DNA of 60,971 nt, taken from assembly GCA_903884005.1 (NCBI GenBank), contig CAISDA010000046.1, forward strand, positions 1 to 60,971. Direction: 5' to 3'. This DNA is from an uncultured Ignavibacteriota bacterium. GTDB lineage: Bacteria; Bacteroidota; Ignavibacteria; UBA10030; UBA8401. A program made the position numbers and the translations under genes. The first letter of the stretch is position 1, and each line of letters opens with the position of its first letter. A model generated the notes under the pieces. That model made no database searches and was not told the origin of the DNA. It saw only the letters and a program-made list of their open reading frames with translations. Below are positions 35,278 to 60,971 of this stretch, one piece after another.

Positions 35278-35781
35278 TTAGTTTTGAAATAATTCTTGCA
35301 GCGAGATGCCGCGTGCCGCTGCGATCGTCTTCGGGTCACGGATGCTCATGAGCGCCGCCAATGTCGCTTTCACGACGTTGTGGGGATTGCTCGATCCCAT
35401 CTGTTTTGTCAACACATCCTTCACGCCGGCAGATTCAAGAATGGCGCGCACGCCGCCGCCTGCGATCAGGCCGGTTCCGGGGGAGGCAGGTTTCAGCATC
35501 ACCTTGCCGGCGCCGAACTTGCCGATCGCTTCGTGGGGAATGGTTCCGTTGACGATGGACACCTTGATGACGTTCTTCTTGGCATCGTCGACGCCTTTCG
35601 AGATCGCATCGGCAACTTCGTTTGCCTTACCGAGACCGAGGCCCACATGGCCGTTGCCGTCGCCGACAACAACGATAGCGTTAAAGCTGAAACGGCGTCC
35701 GCCCTTCACAACTTTCGCTACGCGGTTGATGTGAACCAGCTTGTCTTTTAAATCAAGATCGCTTGTTTTTATGCGTGCCAA
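35278..35781 (-). CDS. rpsE: Ribosomal protein S5
   Basis: The 167-residue S5 contributes to decoding accuracy in the small subunit. The S5 N-terminal domain ([38 protein letters not shown]) and C-terminal domain ([39 protein letters not shown]) are both clear. The start codon is TTG at 35781, preceded by GAGG; no ATG or GTG is available in frame before the conserved domain. It lies immediately downstream of a tRNA-Gln gene that interrupts the rplR-rpsE junction. Confidence 0.96.
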
Positions 35782-35864
35782 CGTGGTACCTCGTTTTATA
35801 GAAAGTTAATAATGTGTCACATCCGTCGAACCGCCAGTGGAAAGCCCCGGCTCGACATGGTTTG

Positions 35865-35935
35865 CTGTCGGGAGAGGAGTCGAACCTCTACAGACGCCTC
35901 CAAAGGGCGTTGTCCTGCCATTAGACGACCCGACA
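35865..35935 (-). tRNA. tRNA-Gln (anticodon TTG)
   Basis: The minus strand folds as a tRNA: acceptor TGTCGGG/CCCGACA, D arm GTC..GAC, anticodon stem ACGCC/GGCGT with loop CTTTGGA (anticodon TTG), T arm AGAGG-TTCGACT-CCTCT, discriminator G. CCA is not encoded. It lies inside the spc ribosomal protein operon between rplR and rpsE, same strand, an unusual place. An 8-bp hairpin lies just upstream (35941-35961). Confidence 0.95.
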
Positions 35936-35940
35936 ATAGG

Positions 35941-35961
35941 GCGTCATCAGACAGATGACGC
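35941..35961 (-). other. 8-bp hairpin next to the tRNA-Gln gene
   Basis: GCGTCATC (35941-35948), AGACA loop, GATGACGC (35954-35961), between the rplR stop and the 5' end of tRNA-Gln. It may mark an RNA-processing point that separates the tRNA from the mRNA. Confidence 0.5.
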
Positions 35962-35973
35962 TCAGAGAGGGCA

Positions 35974-36342
35974 TCAGAATTTCAAACCGCCTGCGCGCAC
36001 AGCATCGGCGAAGGCTTTCACGCGGCCGTGGTAGAGCAGGCCGTTTCTGTCGAAGACAACAGTGGTAATATTTTTTTCGGCCGCCTTTTGTGCGAGCAGT
36101 TTTCCGAGCATCACACCCTTTTCGGTCTTGTTCTTTGCCCCGACAACCGCGGACTTATCGGTCTTGCCGATCGAAGCGACGGCGACCAGTGTCACGCCGT
36201 TCACGTCGTCGATGATCTGTCCGTAAATTTCGGAAAGGCTCCGATAGACCGTCAAGCGCGGACGCTCCGGCGTACCGAAGATCTTTTTGCGGATGTGAGC
36301 CTTGATTTTAGCCCGGCGTATTGTTGTGCTTTTGTTAATCAT
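35974..36342 (-). CDS. rplR: Ribosomal protein L18
   Basis: The 122-residue L18 binds 5S rRNA in the central protuberance of the large subunit. It has the expected basic start (STTIRRAKIKAHIRKKIFGT), PERPRLTVYRSLSEIYGQII and VVFDRNGLLYHGRVKAFADA with the end VRAGGLKF. Length is standard. ATG 36342 lies 88 nt after rplF. Downstream, a hairpin and a tRNA-Gln gene come before rpsE, where bacteria usually have only a few bases. Confidence 0.97.
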   Translation of the reverse strand: MINKSTTIRRAKIKAHIRKKIFGTPERPRLTVYRSLSEIYGQIIDDVNGVTLVAVASIGKTDKSAVVGAKNKTEKGVMLGKLLAQKAAEKNITTVVFDRNGLLYHGRVKAFADAVRAGGLKF

Positions 36343-60454: not shown

Positions 60455-60493
60455 CGGAAGAAGTCTTTCGCATGCCCGTTAGTGTGGTGGTAG

Positions 60494-60566
60494 CACGTGT
60501 GGAGGGACTCGAACCCCCAACCAACGGTTTTGGAGACCGCTACTCTACCAATTGAGCTACACACGT
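60494..60566 (-). tRNA. tRNA-Trp (anticodon CCA)
   Basis: Acceptor ACGTGTG/CACACGT with discriminator G, D arm GCTC..GAGT, anticodon stem with loop CTCCAAA (anticodon CCA), T arm GGGGG-TTCGAGT-CCCTC type. 3' CCA is not encoded. It stands between rpmG and secE, a common bacterial arrangement. Confidence 0.96.
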
Positions 60567-60578
60567 ACAGAAAATTCG

Positions 60579-60728
60579 TTACTTCGTTTCTTTATGTATG
60601 ACGTGCTTGTTGCAGCGCCTGCAATATTTTTTGTATTCCACGCGACCCGTTTGTTTTTTCTTGTTCTTGGTCGTTGTGTAATTTCGTTCTTTGCACGTTG
60701 TGCATTCTAACGTGATAATATCTCGCAT
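60579..60728 (-). CDS. rpmG: Ribosomal protein L33, zinc form
   Basis: The 49-residue L33 of the large subunit is the cysteine-plus form: [19 protein letters not shown] holds the first Cys pair and [18 protein letters not shown] the second. ATG 60728 ([12 protein letters not shown]) is chosen, with GGAGACAG upstream; the open frame extends farther upstream only through the tRNA-Gly gene. It stands between tRNA-Gly and tRNA-Trp, as in many bacteria. Confidence 0.96.
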
Positions 60729-60793
60729 GACTGTCTCCAAAAGAATAGAAACAACCGAAAGACGATATCGTCCTCCGGTTAACCGTTGTGTTG

Positions 60794-60866
60794 AGCGGGA
60801 GACGGGACTCGAACCCGCGACCAACAGCTTGGAAGGCTGTGACTCTACCAACTGAGTTACTCCCGC
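60794..60866 (-). tRNA. tRNA-Gly (anticodon TCC)
   Basis: Acceptor GCGGGAG/CTCCCGC with discriminator T, anticodon stem ACAGC/GCTGT with loop CTTCCAA (anticodon TCC), T arm with TTCGAGT. CCA is not encoded. It lies between tRNA-Thr and rpmG. Confidence 0.96.
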
Positions 60867-60915
60867 GTAACTCTTTTTTTTCTGTGCCGCCTGTACCGCT
60901 ACAACAACATCCTGG

Positions 60916-60971
<56 letters not shown>

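Follow-up and report, generated by a model that had tools for sequence, protein, structure and literature searches.

The spc operon of an uncultured Ignavibacteriota bacterium carries a tRNA-Gln gene with the anticodon UUG between rplR and rpsE. We consider it probable that this gene, the only UUG gene detected, permanently occupies the junction in a large part of the Ignavibacteria and takes the place of the standard prs-linked gene, that it is transcribed together with its neighbors, and that its excision splits the ribosomal protein mRNA and ties the supply of the tRNA to ribosomal protein transcription. The arrangement is real, conserved and functional, and it is ordinary within its lineage.

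The location of the tRNA-Gln gene inside the operon, proposed in the earlier note, was confirmed with ARAGORN and by a match to Rfam family RF00005 (58.9 bits, E 3.3e-10, 35935-35865, minus strand). The spc operon is among the most conserved bacterial gene orders. With the protein genes named by reading the translations of the open reading frames, the order on the minus strand is rpsH, rplF, rplR, tRNA-Gln(UUG), rpsE, rpmD, rplO and secY. The earlier note named no strand; all features of the junction are on the minus one. Operon genes alone flank the tRNA on both sides in the window, the whole 60,971-nucleotide stretch that was analyzed. The features of the junction are listed in Table 1. A distance of 38 nt, which includes a hairpin, separates the rplR stop codon from the tRNA, and the spacer between tRNA and rpsE contains a GAGG Shine-Dalgarno-like stretch at 35789-35792 (minus strand). 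The genome to which the window belongs has a single rpsE match, and rplR was matched by tblastn at all 110 rpsE loci.

Table 1. Features at the rplR-rpsE junction, in coordinates of the window.
Feature	Position	Strand	Basis
tRNA-Gln gene, anticodon UUG, 72 nt	35864-35935	minus	ARAGORN, RF00005, compensatory changes
rplR (L18), last gene ahead of the tRNA	35974-36342	minus	ORF, 122 aa
rpsE (S5), TTG start	35278-35781	minus	ORF, 167 aa
Spacer from tRNA 3' end to rpsE, 82 nt	35782-35863	minus	sequence
Hairpin, 8-bp stem and 5-nt loop, between rplR stop codon and tRNA 5' end	35941-35961	minus	folding

The gene forms a cloverleaf with a UUG anticodon, and its distinct homologues have TTG at this place in 45 of 46 cases and GTG in one. 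E. coli tRNA-Gln is characterized by a weak first acceptor pair, U1-A72, and by discriminator G73; the window tRNA has TA and G at these positions. Across the 46 distinct sequences the first acceptor pair was TA in 45 and AT in one, and the discriminator was G in 39 and A in seven, the A cases counting against our explanation. The 3' CCA is not encoded in the window and is encoded in 10 of the 73 loci compared.

The genome assembly (4.53 Mb, 89 contigs, rated 100% complete) yielded 44 tRNA matches. ARAGORN named 43 of them, based on 36 fetched stretches and the window, and the last one, truncated by a contig end, reads GGT (Thr) by eye. The search for another tRNA-Gln that the earlier note had recommended returned one gene, with anticodon CUG (C83:312071). 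Since a CUG anticodon cannot read CAA by standard rules, the window tRNA is, judging by the assembly, the sole decoder of CAA. A DNA search of the same assembly gave no second UUG copy, the other match being only 17 nt long. Recent duplication of another tRNA of the same genome was also considered and is unsupported, the best identity being 64%; among the tRNA-Gln genes compared from elsewhere, the CUG gene of genome G022 came closest, with 69% identity. Near its end (60493-60971, minus strand) the window contains tRNA-Trp, tRNA-Gly(UCC) and a truncated tRNA reading GGT (Thr) by eye. Contig C20 ends in the same truncated tRNA-Thr stretch, preceded by Thr(UGU) and Tyr, which makes it probable that the two contigs are neighbors.

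The earlier note had regarded a tRNA in the middle of the operon as unusual. Comparison with the spc operons of relatives, as it had suggested, showed that this does not apply to this organism, in whose lineage the arrangement is general. The 30 relatives' genomes provided 29 rpsE loci (G021 yielded none), of which 26 had tRNA-Gln(UUG) upstream of rpsE, one had the same tRNA with GUG (L074, genome G022) and two, both of family f6, had no tRNA there. Among 80 named public rpsE loci, three of which duplicate sequences of the relatives' set, the tRNA was found in 27. These records are named Ignavibacteria, Ignavibacteriales, Ignavibacteriae, Melioribacteraceae, Bacteroidetes or Bacteroidota, and one just 'bacterium'. 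In the other 53, up to 900 nt of upstream sequence were inspected and no tRNA was seen. Among them are records named Kapaibacterium, Calditrichia, KSB1, Neomarinimicrobiota, Geobacter, Sporomusa and Veillonella, as well as a number with the name Ignavibacteria or Ignavibacteriales; several of the latter cluster with family f6.

A sample of the phylum, comprising upstream stretches from 80 of 158 genomes, had the tRNA in every locus of families f7 (13 of 13) and f14 (5 of 5). It was absent from one f6 genome and from 13 further genomes of the class, belonging to six other families, and it was not seen in 48 genomes outside the class. The coordinates of tRNA and rpsE matches were furthermore compared in 119 genomes of the class. 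There were 53 matches of the spc type in total, and in 44 of the 119 genomes such a match ended 35-133 nt ahead of the rpsE match; eight of the 53 were short or weak and lay elsewhere, seven of these on the standard tRNA described below, and genome G255 had a tRNA match without an rpsE match. The anticodon, read in all 44 genomes, was UUG in 43 and GUG in one.

The GUG case is genome G022 (L074/L308, C46:24847-24918), whose spc tRNA is otherwise a tRNA-Gln. No UUG anticodon was present among its 45 tRNA matches, which counts against our explanation. Its long frames contain 67 CAA and 324 CAG codons, with overlapping loci counted more than once. As tRNA-Lys(UUU) was not seen among its tRNA matches either, the assembly may miss tRNAs, and the GUG is either an assembly error or a real oddity.

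The 46 distinct sequences, obtained from 73 loci, had standard pairs in 961 of 966 paired cells, and 12 of the 21 stem pairs showed Watson-Crick changes on both sides. The stems are thus kept by compensatory changes, as expected of a working tRNA under selection, and these changes refute a decaying insertion. It is highly improbable that the tRNA serves as an attachment site for a mobile element or is a functionless insertion in decay: it is the sole UUG tRNA of its assembly, it is flanked solely by operon genes in the window, and it has been kept across families. tRNA genes are common integration sites in general, and a tRNA-Gln in 3 of 50,697 phage records matches the spc tRNA at 81-83% identity; support for a phage origin is limited to these three records.

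At the thresholds used, the spc tRNA and another gene exclude each other. Family f6 of the same order contains, at a different genomic location, a standard bacterial tRNA-Gln(UUG) (G028). With at least 62 of 73 positions required to match and E 1.2e-10 or better, the standard type was detected in 66 of the 119 class genomes and in none of the 44 genomes with the spc tRNA, in which the standard query matched, among the matches listed, the spc tRNA itself. In eight of the 119 genomes these thresholds revealed neither type; G217, which is among the eight, has a weaker match of the standard type. In all 21 loci fetched (L300, L316-L335; 20 chosen across families from the 66, and G028; families f6, f8-f13, f37, f38, f41 and f44), the standard gene was a tRNA-Gln(UUG) located upstream of prs, within about 460 nt. 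The window tRNA stands outside this prs-linked lineage and neighborhood, as it lies in the spc operon and shares 64% identity with the G028 gene.

The exclusive pattern and the prs linkage of the standard gene indicate that the spc tRNA replaced, or was sorted against, the prs-linked gene. The most economical history has a distant tRNA-Gln(UUG) entering the spc junction, a period with both genes, and the subsequent loss of one; in family f6 the spc copy was either lost or never present. A free tree of six spc proteins needed three changes, with f6 of the same order lacking the tRNA, and a tree in which all 37 tRNA-bearing rows were held as one clade was not rejected (AU p 0.199). Some tRNA-less loci (L121, L123, L125, L354 and a few others) have long rplR-rpsE gaps of 113-151 nt; in the long gaps of 11 tRNA-less loci, no leftover tRNA was found by Rfam matching at E 0.1.

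In loci with the tRNA, rplR and rpsE have lost their proximity. From the rplR stop codon to the rpsE start there are 99-281 nt in 62 tRNA-bearing loci. Without the tRNA the junction is mostly tight. The distance is 15-28 nt in the f6 group, whose 11 loci are the two of family f6 plus nine named ones that cluster with these, and 57 further loci have -1 to 151 nt. The tRNA itself begins 3-106 nt after the rplR stop codon, and only 3-8 nt after it in 11 of 54 loci, a count that leaves out the window and in which three loci are duplicates. On the minus strand of the window, no promoter-like or terminator-like site was detected between rplR and rpsE, nor was a TAnnTTTG element present in this interval; the promoter scans used simple consensus types and covered the window alone. 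At the level of the sequence, the tRNA is on the same strand as the operon genes, lies within the operon and has no promoter or terminator of its own recognizable by these simple consensus scans.

The short spacing in 11 of 54 loci and the missing promoter-like and terminator-like sites allow us to propose with fair confidence that the tRNA would be co-transcribed with the ribosomal protein genes and excised by RNase P, and that the mRNA would be split by this. Excision must cut the shared transcript if one exists, as is likely from the spacing. Alternatively, the tRNA could be an independent unit that merely sits in the operon and is driven by a separate promoter, within or downstream of rplR. 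Dedicated promoters are common for bacterial tRNA genes, and the spacer of about 30-50 nt that many loci have could hold part of one. However, the window has no minus-strand sigma-70-like site inside rplR or between rplR and rpsE, the nearest lying ahead of rplR at 36418-36389. A spacer of at most 8 nt in 11 of 54 loci, the TAnnTTTG result and the lack of a terminator-like site that would separate the tRNA from rpsE also argue against such a unit, which we consider rather improbable.

According to the co-transcription model, the tRNA would be transcribed within the ribosomal protein mRNA and RNase P would cleave at its 5' end, while a 3' nuclease would cleave after the discriminator base, with CCA being added afterwards in this genome. 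Each excision would produce an upstream mRNA that ends just past rplR, a few to some tens of nt beyond its stop codon, and a downstream mRNA that starts shortly ahead of rpsE, at about 29-171 nt before the nearest in-frame start in the loci compared. The supply of tRNA-Gln(UUG) would thereby be tied to ribosomal protein transcription, and S5 would be initiated from its own ribosome-binding site and not through short-range coupling to L18. Co-transcription, excision, the split mRNA and any physiological benefit are what we infer from the gene arrangement. One observation on the enzymes counts against our explanation: the RNase Z model TIGR02651 had a match in this genome only below its cut-off (83 bits vs 293). 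The matching sequence is a 298-aa metallo-beta-lactamase-type protein with partial similarity (L336:1426-2322, contig C40).

The earlier note had drawn attention to the TTG start of the following gene and to a possible adjustment of S5 expression by the cut. The TTG start is present in the window; it is, however, not tied to the tRNA. Choosing automatically the nearest in-frame ATG, GTG or TTG, rpsE starts with TTG in 37, GTG in 14 and ATG in 11 of the 62 tRNA-bearing loci, with ATG in 11 of 11 f6-group loci, and with TTG in 14, GTG in 25 and ATG in 18 of the 57 other tRNA-less loci. As non-ATG starts of rpsE are this common without the tRNA (39 of 57), TTG as a tRNA-specific adjustment was rejected. 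The control genes gave ATG for rplR in 62 of 62 tRNA-bearing loci and mostly GTG for rplF in every group. In the window, rpsC and rpsJ (40889, 44489) also appear to start with TTG, and rplF, rpsK, rpsM and rplC with GTG.

Shine-Dalgarno-like matches of at least 4 nt were found at rpsE in 56 of 62 tRNA-bearing loci, in 2 of 11 f6-group loci and in 46 of the 57 others. The contrast in start codons and Shine-Dalgarno-like matches between the f6 group and the tRNA-bearing loci is consistent with short-range coupling having been lost in loci with the tRNA. The f6 pattern is that of a single clade and therefore amounts to one comparison; it is further limited by the outgroups, which have rpsE matches without the tRNA, and by secY of the f6 group, which mostly lacks them (1 of 11).

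The hairpin that had been noticed beside the tRNA 5' end is real in the window, with a folding energy of -13.4 kcal/mol and a z of -4.9, and none of 200 shuffled sequences was as stable; the scan for terminator-like sites did not pick it up. In G001, the one genome of the same genus among the relatives compared, the 8-bp stem is identical and the loop differs. Strong leader structure was also observed in L063, of the same genus, and in a few others, namely L062, L054/L055 (one shared leader), L095, L108 and L118; the last has a 106-nt spacer between rplR and tRNA with a long and very stable hairpin (z -6.3). The structure is nonetheless not general. Over 38 leaders (the 54 loci outside the window, minus three duplicates and 13 leaders under 19 nt) the mean z was -0.44, and the hairpin was rejected as a generally conserved regulatory element. 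As such a hairpin is often missing elsewhere, it is a local addition. In the genus of the window, the mRNA end made by RNase P would lie 5 nt past the hairpin, which makes a shield against 3' exonucleases plausible.

These observations bear on a further reading, in which the tRNA is a regulatory cutting device: the ratio of intact to split mRNA would depend on how rplR translation is balanced against the folding or processing of the tRNA, and S5, L30, L15, SecY and the later genes would be adjusted in this way. The long-term retention at one junction, the stable hairpin just before the RNase P site in the genus of the window and the ATG starts and rare Shine-Dalgarno-like matches of the tRNA-less f6 group are in line with it. 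So are the loci with a 3-8 nt gap, in which a terminating ribosome, judged by the known size of the ribosome footprint, would cover part of the acceptor stem. But the gap is variable and the hairpin is not general, so that the loci share no fixed regulatory geometry; non-ATG starts of rpsE are also frequent in tRNA-less loci, and the f6 pattern concerns one clade in which secY, which does not adjoin the tRNA, also seldom has a Shine-Dalgarno-like match. A dedicated device of this kind is therefore unlikely, although some regulatory role of the cut, including an adjustment of S5, is possible. Equally doubtful is a bolder proposal, by which the maturation of an essential single-copy tRNA would be built into ribosomal protein synthesis. 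One S10-spc-alpha mRNA would be cut for each tRNA-Gln(UUG) made, and at gaps of 3-8 nt the competition between terminating ribosomes and tRNA folding for the same bases would link translation load, tRNA supply and the half of the operon from S5 to L17 in a feedback.

Related arrangements are known. In E. coli, the tRNA-tufB operon and the nusA-infB operon, which contains tRNA(fMet), co-transcribe tRNAs with translation genes. As proposed here for the Ignavibacteria, a tRNA is carried on the mRNA of a translation protein and freed by RNase P and other nucleases; in E. coli, however, the tRNAs open the unit or precede the protein genes, whereas the tRNA described here lies in the middle of the spc operon and is the only one found for its codon. 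In animal mitochondria, tRNAs between protein genes likewise serve as cut points of transcripts; such punctuation is widespread there, whereas here a single tRNA is located in one bacterial operon. Li and Altman reportedly described in 2003 effects of RNase P on polycistronic operon mRNAs. That system is similar in that RNase P cuts a polycistronic mRNA and affects expression, but it is said to concern intergenic structures, and here a full tRNA gene is involved.

Eight tRNAs are located on protein mRNAs in Corynebacterium glutamicum (PMC3890552), likewise within bacterial protein-coding transcripts; the genes are not named and no spc junction is mentioned in the part of the paper available to us. 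The accessible portion of the Melioribacter roseus genome paper gives 45 tRNA genes and nothing on a tRNA at this junction, and a search of the open-licence literature, as far as its texts were accessible, returned no description of a tRNA between rplR and rpsE. Given the C. glutamicum precedent for co-transcription of tRNA and protein genes, the kind of arrangement is known and its place is apparently new.

For the Ignavibacteria, these results mean that the rplR-rpsE junction was opened for a tRNA across many families and that short-range translational coupling between L18 and S5 was presumably given up. The position of the tRNA may serve as a lineage marker. The junction also offers a natural test case for how a balanced output of ribosomal proteins is kept when cutting of the operon mRNA is unavoidable, and for how a distant tRNA can take over from a single-copy one at another location.
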